A stretch of 64,000 nucleotides of DNA from an uncultured Bacilli bacterium. Lineage in GTDB: Bacteria; Bacillota_I; Bacilli_A; RF39; UBA660. The DNA lies in NCBI GenBank assembly GCA_944350495.1, contig CALVOZ010000005.1, positions 1 through 64,000 of the forward strand. Reading direction: 5' to 3'. The position numbers were made by a program, and so were the translations under genes. The notes below the pieces were generated by a model that made no database searches, was not told where the DNA came from, and saw only the letters and a program-made list of their open reading frames with translations. Positions 4,531 to 60,798 of the stretch are shown piece after piece (position 1 is the first letter of the stretch; the number at the start of each line of letters is the position of its first letter).

Positions 4531-4953
4531 GTGGCACAATTAGTAAAGAAAATTAAATTACAAATTCCTGCAGGAAAAGCTACACCAGCTCCACCAGTAG
4601 GAACTGTTTTAGGACCAGCAGGAATTAACTTACAAGAATTTTGTACAAAATATAACGATGCAACAAAAGATAAGATGGGAGATATTCTTCCAGTAGAAAT
4701 TTCAGTATATGATGATAGAACTTTTGATTTTGTAATTAAAACTCCACCAACTGCATTTTTAATTAAGAAAGTTGGGAACGTTAAGAAAGGTTCTACTAAA
4801 GGTAAGAACGAAATCGTTGGAAAACTTACAAAAGCTCAAGTTAGAGAAATCGCTGAAATTAAATTACCAGATTTAAATTGTTATACAGTTGAAGAAGCTA
4901 TGAAGATAGTAGAAGGTACTGCTATTAACATGGGTGTTTCAATTGTTGACTAA
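4531..4953 (+). CDS. rplK: 50S ribosomal protein L11
   Basis: 140 residues. It has the N-terminal motif KLQIPAGKATPAPPVGTVLG and the C-terminal rRNA-binding domain ending in ...GTAINMGVSIVD. L11 forms part of the GTPase-associated centre on 23S rRNA. Start is GTG at 4531, nine bases after AGGAGG (4517-4522); an earlier in-frame GTG at 4522 overlaps that site and is rejected. It heads the rplK-rplA pair. Confidence 0.97.
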   Translation: MAQLVKKIKLQIPAGKATPAPPVGTVLGPAGINLQEFCTKYNDATKDKMGDILPVEISVYDDRTFDFVIKTPPTAFLIKKVGNVKKGSTKGKNEIVGKLTKAQVREIAEIKLPDLNCYTVEEAMKIVEGTAINMGVSIVD

Positions 4954-5043: not shown

Positions 5044-5739
5044 ATGAAAAAAGGAAAGAAATACGTAGAAGCTGCTTCTAAAGTTGAAAAAGCTACACTT
5101 TATTCAAAAGAAGATGCAGTAAAATTAGTAAAAGAAACAAGCACTGCTAAATTTGATGAAACAGTTGAATTAGTTTTAAGACTTAACCTTGACACTAAAA
5201 AAGCTGATCAACAGTTAAGGGGTGCTACAGTATTACCACATGGAATTGGTAAAACTAAAAAAGTATTAGTATTAGCTAAAGGTGAACAAGCTGCTCAAGC
5301 TAAAGAAGCAGGTGCTGATTATGTTGGCGATGCTGATATGATTGAGAAAATTGAAAAAGAAAATTGGTTTGATTTTGATGTTATGATTGCAACACCAGAC
5401 ATGATGCCACAATTAGGAAAAATTGGTCGTATTTTAGGGCCACGTGGTTTAATGCCAAATCCAAAAACTGGAACAGTTACTATGGATACAAAAAGGGCTG
5501 TTGAAGATGTTAAAAAGGGACGTGTTGAATATCGTACAGATAGTTACGGAAACGTAGCAGTATCAATTGGTAAAGTATCTTTTGATGCTGAAAAGTTATT
5601 AGGTAACTTAGAAGCGTTTGTTGGATTAATTATCAAAACAAAACCATCTGCAGTTAAAGGTAAATATATTAAAAATATCAGTATTTCTACAACTATGGGT
5701 CCTGGTATTAAGGTAAACCCAGATAGTTTTGAAAATTAA
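5044..5739 (+). CDS. rplA: 50S ribosomal protein L1
   Basis: 231 residues, full length. Recognised by the conserved block [19 protein letters not shown] and the C-terminal [12 protein letters not shown]1 forms the mobile L1 stalk at the E site and is the usual autogenous repressor of the rplKA operon; possible target hairpins lie before both genes. The ribosome binding site is AAGGAGG at about 5029-5035. A separate promoter follows for rplJ. Confidence 0.97.
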
Positions 5740-5774: not shown

Positions 5775-5893
5775 TCGTTGAGCAAGAATAGTACCGTAGA
5801 CAGTAGGTGACAATAGTCTTAATATCCTACCGAGGAACTTAAATTTATTTAAGGAAATCAAAAAGTCCCTACGGTAATGGTGGGGACTTTTTT
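5775..5893 (+). ncRNA. Ribosomal protein L10 leader
   Basis: A structured 5' leader between the promoter and rplJ. It fits the L10 leader class, in which the L10(L12)4 complex binds the kink-turn-containing RNA and represses its own synthesis. It ends with a hairpin (5862-5869 with 5882-5889) followed by Ts, which would act as the attenuator. ACCGTAG early in the leader is complementary to CTACGGT in the terminator loop, a possible antiterminator pairing. Confidence 0.8.
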
Positions 5894-5926
5894 AACGGTA
5901 TTACACAAAAGTTGAGGAGGTGTAAT

Positions 5927-40086: not shown

Positions 40087-40297
40087 GTTTGTAATTGATG
40101 AAGAAAAATATAAGTAGTTTTACTATTAGTAAATAGAGATTTAACGGTTGGTGAAAGTTAAACAAGATAATAAAATGAAATTACATATTTGGAATCAAAT
40201 CGTTAAATCGCGTTAAGATTATAAGTGCATAACAAGTATTATGAAATAGGGTGGTACCGCGAATATTCGTCCCTATACTCATAATATTTTTTTATTT
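40087..40297 (+). promoter_or_regulatory. T-box riboswitch, probably tRNA-Tyr
   Basis: The antiterminator core GGGTGGTACCGCG (40249-40261) and the downstream CGTCCCT are the T-box hallmarks. The terminator pairs TATTATGAAATAGGG with CCCTATACTCATAATA before seven Ts. In stem I the segment GAAATTACATATTTGG places TAC, a Tyr codon followed by A, in the expected specifier position, matching tyrS in the operon. Uncharged tRNA-Tyr would let transcription read through into the HAD gene, deoC and tyrS. Confidence 0.9.
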
Positions 40298-55597: not shown

Positions 55598-57343
55598 ATG
55601 AATTATAAATATATCCATCTTTTATATGTTCCAACCATGGCTTGTAATATGGAGTGCAAGTATTGCTATTTAGAAGATAATACAGTTGATGAAAAAACTA
55701 AGTATAAGTCTTTAGATACTTTAAAATTTGCTATTAATAAATTTAAAGCAGCAAATGTTATACCATTTAATATTTCATTACATGGTGGTGAAGTTACAAC
55801 TTTATCAAAAGAAGATTTTTATAATCTTATTAAATTTATCAATGATTATTATAATGAAAATAAAGAAATTATAACAGGAGCCGGATTTAAAGTTGGAAAG
55901 CCTCATATTAAAACTAATTTATATAATTTAAGCAAGCATATAGATACAATTAAAGAGTTTAATGTCTCTATTTCAGGCAGTCTAGATCTACCTTTATCAT
56001 TACACGATCAATATCGCGTTACTAAGGGTAATAAAAAGACGCTTGAAAAAATTTTAGAAAATGTAAAATTATTAGAAAATATTTCATGTAAGAAGAAAGT
56101 CTCAGCAACTATTTTTAAAGAACATTATGCACATATTAATGAAATTATTGAAGATATTCGTTTCTTAAATAATAATACTTGTCTTGATATGAACGATTTC
56201 AATTTTATGATTGGATTTGATTATAACTCTAATGGAATTCTTCATCATATGAGTGAAGATGAGCAAGTAGAATTTTATAAAAAGATGCATGAAGCTTTTG
56301 ATGGTACTGATTTAGATGTCGGGGTTAACGGCCCTTGGTTTGATGAATTTGGGCCTGAATATTGTACTAATTGTGATAATTGTGGAGAAAAGTTTTTCTT
56401 ACTTGAACGTAGTGGGGATATATATTCTTGTGTCCGTGGTCAAAAAAATAAAGATTATTATTTTGGTAATATATATAACGATTCAGTTGAAGAAATATTA
56501 GATACGGCTTATAAAAAAATATTTATCAATCATAATAAAGAACCATTTAACGATGAATGTAGTACTTGTGGTTATTTATATCTATGTAAAACAGGATGCC
56601 CGTTTGTAAAAAATGTATATAAATCAAATAAGAGTTATACTTGCAAATTGCAACAATTAATATATAAAGATAGAAACTATGATAAAGATAAATATAACGA
56701 TGAATTTGTTTACAAATATACTAATAAAATGAGTATAATTGATAACGTCAAATATCGTCCTACAAGGAATAATAATGATTATCCATCGTTACAAGAAATT
56801 ATTGAGCAAGATTCAAAATTAAAATATATTTATGATGATACAGTGTTTATCCTAAATGTCGATGGAAATGAATTTCAATTATCTTCACAAATTGTTAAAA
56901 ATAGAAGAGATTTTATATATATCGTGCCAAACTCAAAAGTAAAAATATATATGAAGAAGAATATGATATGTGAAGATTGTGACTATCCAGAAAATAATGC
57001 GTTATATATAATGCTGTTAAGTGGTAATTTAATAACTTATGGTGATGAGTGTAGAACTAAGCAAAGACATATAGCCACAATGCAAATATATAAAGGTGTC
57101 TTAGATAATACTTTAAGCGATAAAGAAGAATATTACTGTTATGATATTTCTAATTTGTTTAAAGAATATAAAGATCATTTTGCACAAGATAAACCAAATA
57201 ATATATTTTTTACAACATCAGCTTTAAGAGATTATCATTATATAAAGCAAAAAAATAATGGATATTATCATATTCAATCAATTAATTTGCCATTTCAAAA
57301 CATTGAGTTTTATTATATAGATAAGGAGTTAAATCATGAATAA
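55598..57343 (+). CDS. Radical SAM/SPASM domain protein, candidate peptide maturase
   Basis: 581 residues. The radical SAM CX3CX2C is Cys16, Cys20 and Cys23 (MACNMECKYCY). The SPASM domain is complete: Cys262-X10-Gly273-X4-Cys278, then Cys321-X2-Cys324-X5-Cys330-X3-Cys334, then Cys349, the full seven-cysteine pattern for two auxiliary clusters. The last 230 residues are not recognised. Enzymes of this type modify ribosomal peptides or activate sulfatases; no sulfatase is present. AAGGGGG precedes the ATG, and its end overlaps by 8 bases a gene for a protein with an Asn-rich tail, the obvious candidate substrate. The peptide link is an inference from gene order. Confidence 0.88.
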   Translation: MNYKYIHLLYVPTMACNMECKYCYLEDNTVDEKTKYKSLDTLKFAINKFKAANVIPFNISLHGGEVTTLSKEDFYNLIKFINDYYNENKEIITGAGFKVGKPHIKTNLYNLSKHIDTIKEFNVSISGSLDLPLSLHDQYRVTKGNKKTLEKILENVKLLENISCKKKVSATIFKEHYAHINEIIEDIRFLNNNTCLDMNDFNFMIGFDYNSNGILHHMSEDEQVEFYKKMHEAFDGTDLDVGVNGPWFDEFGPEYCTNCDNCGEKFFLLERSGDIYSCVRGQKNKDYYFGNIYNDSVEEILDTAYKKIFINHNKEPFNDECSTCGYLYLCKTGCPFVKNVYKSNKSYTCKLQQLIYKDRNYDKDKYNDEFVYKYTNKMSIIDNVKYRPTRNNNDYPSLQEIIEQDSKLKYIYDDTVFILNVDGNEFQLSSQIVKNRRDFIYIVPNSKVKIYMKKNMICEDCDYPENNALYIMLLSGNLITYGDECRTKQRHIATMQIYKGVLDNTLSDKEEYYCYDISNLFKEYKDHFAQDKPNNIFFTTSALRDYHYIKQKNNGYYHIQSINLPFQNIEFYYIDKELNHE

Positions 57344-57692
57344 AGAACCAGAAACGTATGAAGAACTTATTAGACAGCATCGTTGTTTAAACTTAACTAA
57401 AATTTATAATTTAACATCAGAACAATTAAATCAAATTTATAATTTTTTAGCAACTAATCCTGACGGGAAAATTAAAGGTGATAGAAATCATCTATCTTTA
57501 TTGGTTGGTAAGCAAGTGGTTTCATTAATAACTTGTGAGTGTGTTGATGTCACAGTTGATGGAGTGGATTTATCTAATAATTCATTTAGTATTATAAATT
57601 ATTATACTTCTTCATCAAATGGGTCATATAGTGGTGGTTCATCATCAAACAATAATAACAATAATAATAACAATAACAATAATAATAGGTAG
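57336..57692 (+). CDS. Candidate precursor peptide with poly-Asn C-terminus
   Basis: 118 residues. The first 90 form a compact, helical then beta-rich domain (ETYEELIRQHRCLNLTKIYNL..., LLVGKQVVSLITCECVDVTVDG). The end is low complexity: a Tyr/Ser/Gly segment (YYTSSSNGSYSGGSSS) and then thirteen Asn (105-117) and one Arg. It overlaps the radical SAM gene by 8 bases, so the two are translated together. The plan of leader domain plus simple tail resembles RiPP precursors, such as Gly-rich GrrA-like or His-Xaa-Ser types, but no known family is recognised. No signal peptide is present. Confidence 0.65.
   Translation: MNKEPETYEELIRQHRCLNLTKIYNLTSEQLNQIYNFLATNPDGKIKGDRNHLSLLVGKQVVSLITCECVDVTVDGVDLSNNSFSIINYYTSSSNGSYSGGSSSNNNNNNNNNNNNNR
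57648..57686 (+). repeat. AAY trinucleotide tract (13 Asn codons)
   Basis: Thirteen consecutive AAC/AAT codons near the end of the candidate precursor gene. The codons are mixed, so the tract is only partly a pure repeat. Confidence 0.9.
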
Positions 57693-57699
57693 GTGAGTT

Positions 57700-58710
57700 A
57701 TGACATTTATTTCTGATAAATTTCAAAATGAAAAATTAGATAAGTATCATATAAATGTTAAAACTAAATATGTAGTTGGTAATAATATTTTAGAACGTAA
57801 TACTAATGGTTCAATTAATGATGATATTTTAAATGGTGTTATCCAACAAAAAGAATATTATTTAAATGATAAATTAATTCATAAAGAAACTAATTTTGAT
57901 ACTAGAATGGAATACACCTTTATTTCTAAGAAAAATGAAGAGAAGAATATTAGTTGCCCTAACTGTGGAATGACTTTGCCGTTAAAAAAAATTAATGATG
58001 GTTGCCCATATTGTGGTACTTATTATAATTTAGATTATTCTGATAAAGAGTTAGGTGGTAAACATTATTATGATTATATTTTAAAAAGTAACACATATCG
58101 AGTTATCGTTGCTATTATTTCTCTTTTAATAAGTAGTTTCTTTAGTTATTTATTTGTTAAAAATACTTCTCGGACATTTAATAGTATTGATATTATTAAA
58201 GTGTTTGTCTATGGCACAATTTTAGCGGTTATTTTATACTATATATTTTATACTTTAGATGCTTATTTAATTTTAACTCCAGTCAAGAAATATAAGCAAA
58301 AACTTAATCAAAAACAAAAAAATTTTTGGAATCGTACTAAAATTGATAAAAAAACTTTTTTTAATAATTTAAATTATGAGATAAGAAAATATTATTATCA
58401 ACAAGAAAAAATTATTGATTATGATATATTAGATTATATAAGTTATGAAGATTATACTAAAGATGATGTTATGTATGTAAAAGTTCAGGCTGACGTAAGA
58501 AAGATATTATTAGTAAATAATAAAATAAAAGTAGAAAATAAAGTAGAGACATATACTTTACGACGTACTAAAAATACAGTTAAATTAACAAGTGGTGTAA
58601 ATACTATGTCTTGTCATAAGTGTGGTGCACCAATTGATGTAACAGCAGATAAATGTGAATATTGTAACTCACCAATTAAGTATTTACAGGAATGGGTATT
58701 AGACTATTAA
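57700..58710 (+). CDS. Membrane protein with two zinc ribbons and Tim44-like part
   Basis: 336 residues. A first zinc ribbon (CPNCG...CPYCG at about 86-106) is followed by two transmembrane helices (about 137-195), then a mixed alpha/beta domain with YISYEDYTKDDVMYVKVQADVR and a second ribbon at the end (CHKCG...CEYCN). The last part has the same order of elements as the Tim44-like protein at 14987-15760, including a closing segment with Trp (QEWVLDY). The function is unknown; a membrane-bound partner of the candidate peptide system is possible. TAGGTGAG precedes the ATG, 8 bases after the candidate precursor. A terminator lies over its stop codon. Confidence 0.65.
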   Translation: MTFISDKFQNEKLDKYHINVKTKYVVGNNILERNTNGSINDDILNGVIQQKEYYLNDKLIHKETNFDTRMEYTFISKKNEEKNISCPNCGMTLPLKKINDGCPYCGTYYNLDYSDKELGGKHYYDYILKSNTYRVIVAIISLLISSFFSYLFVKNTSRTFNSIDIIKVFVYGTILAVILYYIFYTLDAYLILTPVKKYKQKLNQKQKNFWNRTKIDKKTFFNNLNYEIRKYYYQQEKIIDYDILDYISYEDYTKDDVMYVKVQADVRKILLVNNKIKVENKVETYTLRRTKNTVKLTSGVNTMSCHKCGAPIDVTADKCEYCNSPIKYLQEWVLDY

Positions 58711-58729
58711 TAATTAATAGTCTTTTTTT
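58701..58729 (+). terminator. Intrinsic terminator at the end of the radical SAM operon
   Basis: 9-bp stem (58701-58709 with 58715-58723) and a T run; overlaps the last stop codon. Confidence 0.85.
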
Positions 58730-58738
58730 ATTGTAAAT

Positions 58739-58767
58739 TTGCGTATTTAGTAACATTTTGGTATAAT
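58739..58767 (+). promoter_or_regulatory. Promoter of the HExxH protein gene
   Basis: TTGCGT at 58739-58744, a 17-bp spacer with TG at 58759-58760, TATAAT at 58762-58767. Confidence 0.65.
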
Positions 58768-58797
58768 TTGTTTAATTTTTAGAAAGCAGGTTGTTTT

Positions 58798-60207
58798 ATG
58801 AGTAGATTTAGAGTAAGTAATCTTAATGTTTTTTCTATCTTCAGTGATGAAGATTCTTTAAAGTGCAAAATAAAACAAGTTGCTTTAAAATGTCAAAAAG
58901 ATATTGAACATTTTTCTTTTAGTAATGAAAAATTTCATTCTTATATAGCTGATTATTTAGTGCCATATATTTATTATGATCCTTTATATTGGTATTCTAA
59001 TCCTTTAATTAGAGAAATAAAAAAGCACATTGGGAATGAAATCCCAATGTGTTTTTTAAATATTATAGAATTTTTTGAAAATGATTCAAATTATAGAAAT
59101 TCTCTTAATACTGTTAAACAAATAATTGAGCAAATTTTATTATTGGGTAAAGATATATCTAGTGAAGAAGCAATAGAATTAATAGACGCTAGTATTTTAT
59201 TAAATGATTTTTATCCTGAACTAGTTTGTAATTATTTAATTGGTAAAATAATGGAGAAAAAATTAGTACTTGATGATGCAAATTATCAACGCTTATTTTT
59301 TCAATTTGTAGAATTGTTTAAACAAAGAAATTCTCTAAGCTGTTATTTTATGAAAGGTCGTTTCGAAAGAAGAATAGTTGATGATAAGGTTATAGTAATC
59401 GATGCCATTATTAAAAAGAAAAATGGTACATACCGAATAATATTTAATGAACATACATTGACTTGTGATAATATCTTAAACAATTTAAGAACGTTATTTC
59501 ATGAAACTTGGCATTTTGTTCAAAAAGATGCTGAGTATAGTGAACAATATTATCGTGAATTATTTATAATGGATACATTTTTAGCGCAAACTAAAGGTGA
59601 ATATGGAGAGAATAATTATGATTTTATGGCTGATGAAAGCGATGCTTTTTTGAATGAAAATATAATGCTATATCAATATTTAAATCGTATTAGTAAAATT
59701 ACCTTTGATCAAGAAAAAAGTAACATATTAAGAATTGTTAGAGAAAAAATAGCTGCTCGCAGCAATACTCTTAGAAAAGATCAGTTTGGAAATACAATTT
59801 ATATTGATGAATATTTTGAAAGAATAACTAAAATTTATAATGTTAATCCATATTATGATTTAGGAATGATATATACATATAATAGTGATGGCAAACGTTT
59901 AACACCATTACAACTATATAAAACTTTAGAAAAATTAGAAGAAAATAGCGAAATATATAATTATTATTTAATTTTATTATTTAACAGTCATTATAGTAAG
60001 GAAGATTTACCTCAGATATTAAAAGAATTAAAAAAAGAAATTGATTCTACTACTGGTAATTATTTATTATTAATTAAAATATATTGGTATTATGTTAAAC
60101 AATTTTTAAGTAATCAAACTATTCAAAGTAGCAATCAAGAATTCTTACAATTTGAACAGGTAATGGAGAAACCGAAAAAAAAGCAACTAAATTTGATTGT
60201 TAATTAA
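58798..60207 (+). CDS. HExxH-containing protein, possible metallopeptidase
   Basis: 469 residues, soluble, no signal peptide. FHETWHFVQ gives a zinc-protease-like HExxH (His235, Glu236, His239), and an acidic DESDAFLNEN segment about 45 residues later could supply a third ligand. The N- and C-terminal parts are helical and not recognised. It has its own promoter and lies just after the radical SAM operon, so it could be the leader peptidase of that system; nothing beyond position supports this. A perfect hairpin plus T run (59020-59057) occurs inside the frame, encoding residues near 75-87. Confidence 0.65.
   Translation: MSRFRVSNLNVFSIFSDEDSLKCKIKQVALKCQKDIEHFSFSNEKFHSYIADYLVPYIYYDPLYWYSNPLIREIKKHIGNEIPMCFLNIIEFFENDSNYRNSLNTVKQIIEQILLLGKDISSEEAIELIDASILLNDFYPELVCNYLIGKIMEKKLVLDDANYQRLFFQFVELFKQRNSLSCYFMKGRFERRIVDDKVIVIDAIIKKKNGTYRIIFNEHTLTCDNILNNLRTLFHETWHFVQKDAEYSEQYYRELFIMDTFLAQTKGEYGENNYDFMADESDAFLNENIMLYQYLNRISKITFDQEKSNILRIVREKIAARSNTLRKDQFGNTIYIDEYFERITKIYNVNPYYDLGMIYTYNSDGKRLTPLQLYKTLEKLEENSEIYNYYLILLFNSHYSKEDLPQILKELKKEIDSTTGNYLLLIKIYWYYVKQFLSNQTIQSSNQEFLQFEQVMEKPKKKQLNLIVN
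59020..59057 (+). terminator. Terminator-like hairpin inside a coding sequence
   Basis: A 16-bp stem (59020-59035 with 59042-59057) with one G-U pair and an ATGAAA loop, of which the core GCACATTGGGA/TCCCAATGTGT is followed by six Ts. This would be taken for a strong intrinsic terminator if it lay between genes, yet it is about 225 bases inside an open frame. Confidence 0.7.
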
Positions 60208-60270: not shown

Positions 60271-60798
60271 ATGGCATCATATAAGGAAATTGTTACTAAA
60301 GCTGTAATTGGAAAGGGTAAAAAAAGTTTCAAAAATAAATATGAAATAGAAGTAGAAGAGAAACCAACTACTGTTTTAGGATGTTGGGTAATTAATCATA
60401 TGTTTGAGGGTTACAAGAATGATGATAATATTGGTGTATCAGGCAGTTTTGATATTAATATATGGTATTCGTATGATTCTGATACCAAGACAAAGGTTGT
60501 AACTAAAAAAATTGAATATAATGATAATTTTAATATGAAATTTAATAATGTCAAAACTATGAAAGACACTGATATTATAGTCCGAAGTTTAACACAGCCA
60601 AGTTGTTCTGATGTTACGATTAATGATAATAAAATAAATTTTGTTATTGATAAAGAATTGGGCGTTGAAATAGTTGGGGAAACTAAAGTTAAAATTGCTA
60701 TTGAAGATGATGAGGAACCTTGGGATATTATTGATGATGAGGTAACAGAAGAAACATTAGATGATATAGAAAATGAAGTTAATGAAGAATATTTATAA
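60271..60798 (+). CDS. cotE: Outer spore coat protein CotE
   Basis: 175 residues. It matches CotE from the start: YKEIVTKAVIGKGKK, TVLGCWVINHMFEG, SGSFDINIWYSYDSDTKTKV, then DIIVRSLTQPSC and VEIVGETKVKI, ending in an acidic tail. CotE directs assembly of the outer coat of the endospore on the mother-cell side. Start 60271 follows GAGGAG; an in-frame ATG at 60256 precedes it. A sporulation-type promoter lies upstream, and a long terminator follows whose 3' arm holds the -35 box of rpsP. Confidence 0.92.
   Translation: MASYKEIVTKAVIGKGKKSFKNKYEIEVEEKPTTVLGCWVINHMFEGYKNDDNIGVSGSFDINIWYSYDSDTKTKVVTKKIEYNDNFNMKFNNVKTMKDTDIIVRSLTQPSCSDVTINDNKINFVIDKELGVEIVGETKVKIAIEDDEEPWDIIDDEVTEETLDDIENEVNEEYL

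Follow-up and report, generated by a model that had tools for sequence, protein, structure and literature searches.

A conserved stem-loop inside a long HExxH-motif gene of an uncultured Bacilli bacterium, a candidate in-gene terminator

A hairpin inside an open frame

The locus studied here carries a terminator-like hairpin near the beginning of a long open reading frame, and we asked whether the stem is kept for its RNA shape or for the peptide that it encodes, and what it might do. The window, that is the whole stretch of DNA analysed, is 64,000 nucleotides (64 kb) long. The features needed below are as follows.

58798..60207, plus strand: 469-codon gene with an ATG start, a helical N-terminal part and an HETWH zincin-like motif; no Pfam match
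58762..58767, plus strand: candidate -10 box TATAAT, with a weak -35 (TTGCGT, 58739-58744) and a 17-base spacer; sequence reading
58783..58790, plus strand: Shine-Dalgarno-like AAAGCAGG ahead of the ATG at 58798; sequence reading, identical in the relative L026
59020..59035, plus strand: 5' arm of the in-frame stem, from codon 75 to the first base of codon 80; sequence and fold
59036..59041, plus strand: loop ATGAAA; sequence and fold
59042..59057, plus strand: 3' arm ending in T6 (59052-59057), a terminator-like U-tract; sequence, fold and terminator scan
58701..58723, plus strand: weaker hairpin and T run (-8.4 kcal/mol), probable terminator of the upstream gene 57700-58710; for comparison only, separate from the finding

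The plus strand reads AAAAAGCACATTGGGA-ATGAAA-TCCCAATGTGTTTTTT from 59020 to 59057. The original prediction described a perfect hairpin with a 16-bp stem, a 6-base loop and a six-T tail. All 16 pairs and the loop of six were confirmed; however, the stem is not entirely Watson-Crick, being made of 15 such pairs and one G.U pair (59025-59052), and the T6 is no extra tail but the final six bases of the 3' arm, paired with the A-run. The GC-bearing core of the stem is 10 bp long (59026-59035 with 59042-59051, 5 GC pairs) and is followed by T6 and then AAA. RNA folding of 59020-59057 gave -21.6 kcal/mol (z -8.1), which was equalled by none of 200 dinucleotide shuffles. The hairpin starts 222 bases past the first base of the frame, close to the 225 bases first estimated, and the frame passes through it intact, 58798-60207 being open throughout its 469 codons.

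The 16-pair stem is the longest among the 29 hairpins listed in the 64 kb, the next having 13 pairs. Both strands of the window were then scanned for terminator-like sites, defined as a core stem plus a T-run, against 60 frames (six antisense frames were dropped as spurious and one 80-codon frame was added). Fourteen sites were found, and the in-gene hairpin had the best energy (-20.6 kcal/mol; next -18.7). Eleven sites were between genes or over gene ends and three were inside frames, the two others inside frames having -8.3 and -6.8 kcal/mol. The in-gene hairpin has the sequence features of an intrinsic (Rho-independent) terminator, namely a GC-bearing core, a short loop and a U-tract directly after the core, and it lies within the coding sequence, ahead of the stop codon, where it covers codons 75-87 of the 469. 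A simple consensus scan made no plus-strand call for it and gave only a minus-strand reading (10 pairs, tail CTTTTTTATT). Elsewhere in the window, Rfam models identified an L10 leader (5776-5902) and a T-box leader (40092-40277), which are ordinary leader families. L10 and T-box leaders act by terminator control in Bacilli.

The candidate -10 box implies a transcript start near 58773, and this box and its 3' flank are retained in L026. Because the consensus promoter scan does not list the TATAAT box at 58762, where the -35 matches three of six positions and falls under the limit of the scan, we regard the promoter as putative. The HETWH motif occupies residues 235-239, and its H, E and H are invariant across four aligned members of the gene family. 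The name HExxH protein is right for the motif; the protein itself is presumably zincin-like. The structure model, built on a 4-row alignment (mean pLDDT 67, pTM 0.47), places with modest confidence helices as far as residue 177, followed by strands and by the helix holding HETWH (223-243). Residues 77-83 are predicted to form a loop joining helices 69-76 and 84-94. Comparison of this model (pLDDT 67) with the PDB gave no match at E <= 0.001. A Pfam search with the 469-residue protein found no family, NCBIfam gave a single match (0.021) to an unrelated model, and PHROGs gave two weak matches, both to families of unknown function (0.0093 and 0.16).

The neighbouring genes were also inspected. 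Three genes in succession at 55598-58710 encode a radical SAM/SPASM protein, a protein of 118 residues with an Asn run at its end and a double zinc-ribbon protein, and may form a peptide-modification cluster that adjoins the HExxH gene. Of 10 genus genomes, counting that of the window, 7 match the zinc-ribbon gene. On the other side, 60271-60798 encodes the spore coat protein CotE (Pfam 1.9e-47), which is matched in 10 of 10 genus genomes including the window's own, a genome of about 1.3 Mb.

Conservation of the hairpin in a rare gene family

The gene family is rare. Five distinct members were found, the window gene, L026, L060, L061 and L086, with duplicates counted once (L059 equals L026; L085 and L089 equal L060). 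The N-terminal region containing the hairpin is present in all five, and the lowest identities to the window protein are 35-37% of residues. When residues 185-469 were used to search 193 family genomes, G190 (L026 in the member set) was the single clear relative, with 63% identity over residues 185-469 and 66% over 439 residues; the other 12 non-self matches had E values of 4.9e-4 or worse. L060 is record CALVQO010000023.1, the same contig as G559. L061 is G525, from a search of 385 order genomes in which three matched: that of the window, G525 and G322, the last limited to residues 213-313. L086 is G555, from a search in which 5 of 275 genomes matched, G525, G555, G559 and two with matches starting after the hairpin. 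A search of 277 genomes returned G190 and five matches starting past the hairpin region, and among those five only G149 (L087) was inspected. The more distant HExxH proteins L062, L087 and L088 have different N-termini, as judged from their translations, read unaligned. The gene was absent from the 11 congeners searched, and relatives were also not found in a genome-contig search with the window protein as single query or among viral contigs, phages and plasmids.

A profile of the N-terminal part was searched against 386 family genomes. Twenty genomes, the window's own and G190 included, matched at E <= 0.01, and the remaining 18 were weak (best 1.3e-4), with 19 listed places. Nine of these 19 places were re-scored together with three loci from the search of the 193 family genomes, and four of the 12 gave any match: three were short WY-NPL-like matches in frames of about 1,550 residues, which we take to be PolC, and one was a weak local match. 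The 19 places were judged to be chance, ten of them unopened. A DNA search of the same number of family genomes (386) matched 246; G000 (1e-166) and G190 (6e-113) were taken as real and the other matches (best 2e-6) as AT-rich noise.

Codons 75-87 of the five members, with the number of stem pairs formed, are as follows.

Window: AAA AAG CAC ATT GGG AAT GAA ATC CCA ATG TGT TTT TTA; 16 pairs
L026: differs from the window by ATT, TGC and TTG; 16 pairs
L060: AAA GAG CAC ATA GGA AAT GAA CTT CCT ATG TGT TTT TTA; 16 pairs
L061: AAA GAA CAT GTA GGA AAT GAA CTT CCA ACA TGT TTT TTA; 15 pairs
L086: AAA GAG CAT GTA GGA AAT GAG CTT CCT ACA TGC TTT TTT; 16 pairs

Altogether 79 of 80 pairs are formed. Among the 16 stem pairs, five (four by a second count) have changed on both sides and one on one side, and ten are invariant. 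In codon.position notation, pair 77.3-84.3 changes from C-G to U-A, pair 79.3-82.3 from G-C or G.U to A-U, and pair 78.3-83.3 from U-A to A-U, the last being broken in L061 by an A.A mismatch. Pair 78.1-84.2 changes from A-U to G-C through a linked replacement of Ile by Val and of Met by Thr, so that the residue is altered on both sides. Homologues thus keep the pairing by compensatory change, as the original prediction had proposed to check, and the outcome that it named as refuting, the same protein with no pairing, was seen in none of the five members, even the weakest, L061, keeping 15 of its 16 pairs.

The covariation score was matched by 1 of 500 shuffles, and so was the percentage of paired positions. 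Two other measures were not extreme, the number of pairs with two-sided change being matched by 54 of 500 shuffles and that of further pair types by 359 of 500. None of six slid versions of the stem had a pair with two-sided change, in a control that is biased toward the structure taken from one sequence. Because L061 and L086, and likewise the window and L026, look like sister pairs, we counted about four independent double changes, by eye and without a tree. The best 39-nt fold of the coding sequence was the hairpin site in all five members, at -15.0 to -21.6 against -7.5 to -12.8 for the next best (L060 was scanned in two pieces). Because paired base substitutions have preserved the hairpin in four related genes, selection probably acts on the RNA shape as such, and RNA-level selection on the stem is well supported by the sequence comparison.

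L060 has two further peculiarities. Its frame is broken at 5343-5395, about 41 codons past the hairpin, as in a pseudogene or through an assembly error, while the hairpin is intact (16/16) and the HExxH part is open. A second terminator-like hairpin (4904-4933, -15.9 kcal/mol) lies just before the gene start and after a small frame of 41 codons. The sequences CATAGGA/TCCTATG occur both in the arms of this second hairpin and in the in-gene stem, and crosswise pairing of the two hairpins is possible.

The two strands differ. In all five members the sense fold is stronger than the antisense fold, because G.U pairs turn into A.C on the other strand, and this difference in stability favours a role in the sense RNA. 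A run of 5-6 T stands at the end of the sense 3' arm in every member, whereas L060, L061 and L086 have interruptions in the antisense T-run; the sense T-run is weak evidence, because TTT and TTA (Phe-Leu) are default codons in a genome of 28% GC.

The window and L026 also share a block in which they have diverged little. Between the -10 box and the end of the hairpin, 13 of 15 bins of 20 bases have 85-100% identity and the other two 70 and 80%, compared with 50-75% outside this stretch. Along window positions 58758-59058, identity to L026 falls sharply right at the hairpin end. For this pair, codons 1-87 have a dS of 0.22 and codons 88-439 one of 1.19. When shared residues were compared, codons 1-87 were significantly enriched in identical codons in one of ten pairs of members, window-L026 (Fisher 0.0018), with the other nine at 0.11 or above. 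NG86 dS was lower in codons 1-74 than from codon 88 to the end in 10 of 10 pairs, with values that are saturated and pairs that are not independent. Because of this saturation and dependence, and because a recombination tract would fit equally well, the block is not used as support; it may be either such a tract or a sign of constraint.

Explanations for the stem

The 13-residue peptide could be kept for protein reasons and encode a palindrome by chance, with no RNA function. Random codons for the fixed peptides give means of 13.8 to 14.5 of 16 pairs (14.4 in the window), and with the protein fixed the pair counts are not significant (P = 0.11, 0.12, 0.14, 0.27 and 0.05 in the five members), because the peptide almost dictates the stem. 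The adjacent block YWYxNPL, which lies outside the stem, is strongly conserved too. The choice among synonymous codons, however, favours the stem. With the codon use of each gene itself, the P value for stem energy was 0.001 in the window, 0.001 in L026, 0.014 in L060 and 0.001 in L086, and only L061 was unremarkable (0.24); with the codon use of the window the values were 0.004, 0.003, 0.032, 0.27 and 0.002. The summed stem energy of L060, L061 and L086, with the window and L026 left out, was matched in none of 5000 synonymous recodings, and the window stem contains the uncommon codons CAC, GGG, AAG and ATC. The linked change of Ile/Met to Val/Thr also argues against a purely protein-based origin, as does the peptide itself. 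When 13-residue stretches from the 52 plus-strand frames of the window were ranked by expected pairing in this one geometry only, it came first of 16,750 (14.4 pairs; mean 6.6, sd 1.6, next 12.8). We consider conservation for the protein's sake alone quite unlikely, and we read the sequences as suggesting that the RNA stem has shaped codons and residues alike. A selected mRNA stem may nevertheless have another job than termination, as an RNase cleavage site, a site bound by the gene's own protein or by another regulator, or a speed bump for the folding of the N-terminal helices. All the evidence for a selected sense stem fits such a job equally, the stem of arfA is described as serving both RNase III and termination (PMC3989581), and the peptide spans the predicted loop between two helices. 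What these roles would not require is the layout of A-run, stem and T-run, which resembles the gene-end terminator-like sites in the window. We regard another job as possible, if on the unlikely side.

The stretch from promoter to hairpin might instead be a regulatory RNA of about 285 bases whose 3' end is formed by the hairpin. The high identity of the window and L026 over exactly this stretch and the lower dS of the early codons would agree with it, but the codon-identity excess in a single pair suits a recombination tract as well and the dS comparison is saturated and made on dependent pairs, so that we find such an RNA very improbable. The near-perfect palindrome within an open frame would also fit the in-frame insertion of a dispersed palindromic repeat. 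The 81-base hairpin segment has one match in the 1.33 Mb genome assembly (94% complete), and the 27-base core likewise has one match with up to 3 mismatches, where a REP-like element would have many copies; moreover, the hairpin stands at equivalent codons in five members of diverged sequence. Since it is single-copy as far as 94% completeness shows, the hairpin is not a dispersed repeat, an idea to which we give next to no credence. No more credible is a -1 frameshift signal: the heptamer A AAA AAG at the stem foot is in the right frame in two members, the window and L026, but L060, L061 and L086 have AAA GAG or AAA GAA in its place, and heptamer and stem follow each other without a spacer.

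Proposed action and known systems

The reading that we prefer, and to which we give about an even chance on sequence and analogy, is that the selected sense-strand stem-loop is an in-gene intrinsic terminator or attenuator. When polymerase copies the A-run, core stem and T-run, a share of the transcripts would end near 59057. The ended RNAs would be about 285 bases long and would have no stop codon, so that ribosomes would stall on them and the N-terminal peptides, of about 86 residues, would receive a trans-translation tag. Readthrough transcripts would give the full zincin-like protein, which is presumably made, at least in part, because its HExxH part is conserved. In this way the hairpin would attenuate expression from within the gene, setting or switching the level of the full-length protein. 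Termination, its frequency, the regulation of readthrough and the fate of the short product are what we infer for this gene. A tmRNA gene was not found in the 64-kb window, which was the only DNA searched for it.

Translation-dependent attenuation is possible. RNA polymerase has been reported to outrun ribosomes in Bacillus subtilis and other species with runaway transcription (PMC13323073), and for this reason a following ribosome may not shield the RNA by default. If the present lineage is a runaway-transcription species, the stem would be free to form, since the ribosome would not be close behind polymerase. No conserved antiterminator was common to all five members. In the longest fragments that precede the 3' arm, the 5' arm pairs with nt 142-156 in the window, L026 and L060, and elsewhere in L061 and L086.

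A bolder version, which we hold only as a doubtful proposal, is a two-product gene. The in-frame terminator, one sixth into a long enzyme gene, would end most transcripts without a stop codon, the N-terminal peptide would survive only under trans-translation overload, regulated readthrough would make the zincin, and the kept stem would have dictated the amino-acid sequence there. The linked residue pairs (Ile/Met or Val/Thr) would be the sign of this dictation. Regulated use is suggested because an in-frame terminator should be costly and yet is kept by paired changes, and the cost would be highest where RNA polymerase outruns ribosomes. If this is true, in-gene termination would no longer be confined to very small genes for rescue factors and leaders but would reach a large, enzyme-like one, and the locus would be a clean case of RNA structure constraining protein sequence.

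Terminators or terminator-like stems within coding sequences have been described in several systems. The internal terminator of brfA (yqkK) of B. subtilis was demonstrated by deletion and synonymous mutations with a lacZ readout (PMC6881298) and is also treated in PMC8012679. As in brfA, the intrinsic terminator, predicted in our case, lies inside the coding sequence before the stop codon of a Bacilli gene and would give a stop-less mRNA (PMC6881298). The brfA gene has 71 codons, and its truncated product of about 62 residues is taken as active (PMC6881298), whereas the window hairpin is at codons 75-87 of 469 with the HExxH motif downstream, and no sequence relation is claimed. The arfA gene of Escherichia coli likewise contains an inverted repeat in its frame, which yields a stop-less mRNA; there RNase III cuts the stem, premature termination is a second route, and the stem lies towards the 3' end of the gene, which has 72 codons (PMC3989581). 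Conservation of the stem among homologues, which would be expected of an internal terminator of this kind, is seen in the present family (79 of 80 pair cells in five members). A rescue factor of the ArfA/BrfA type was considered and rejected, the protein having 469 residues and a conserved HExxH downstream of the hairpin where a short active protein would be expected.

The bmrB gene of B. subtilis also has a terminator-like structure in its coding region, and readthrough is affected by the state of translation (PMC4191407). It is a 162-bp leader ORF controlling the downstream bmrCD, with a predicted antiterminator (PMC4191407), whereas our hairpin is contained in one long gene and a conserved antiterminator was not found in the five members. 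RNA 3' ends internal to E. coli ORFs, mapped by experiment, can be functional; the ends of sRNAs there are mostly attributed to processing, and the part of that report dealing with such ends does not mention a stem with compensatory changes (PMC7815308). A search of the open-access literature found no report of an early terminator in a long gene with an HExxH motif downstream. In-gene terminators as such are already known, and what appears to be new, judged from the sequences and from these analogies, is a terminator-like hairpin that comes near the start of a long gene and precedes the HExxH motif.
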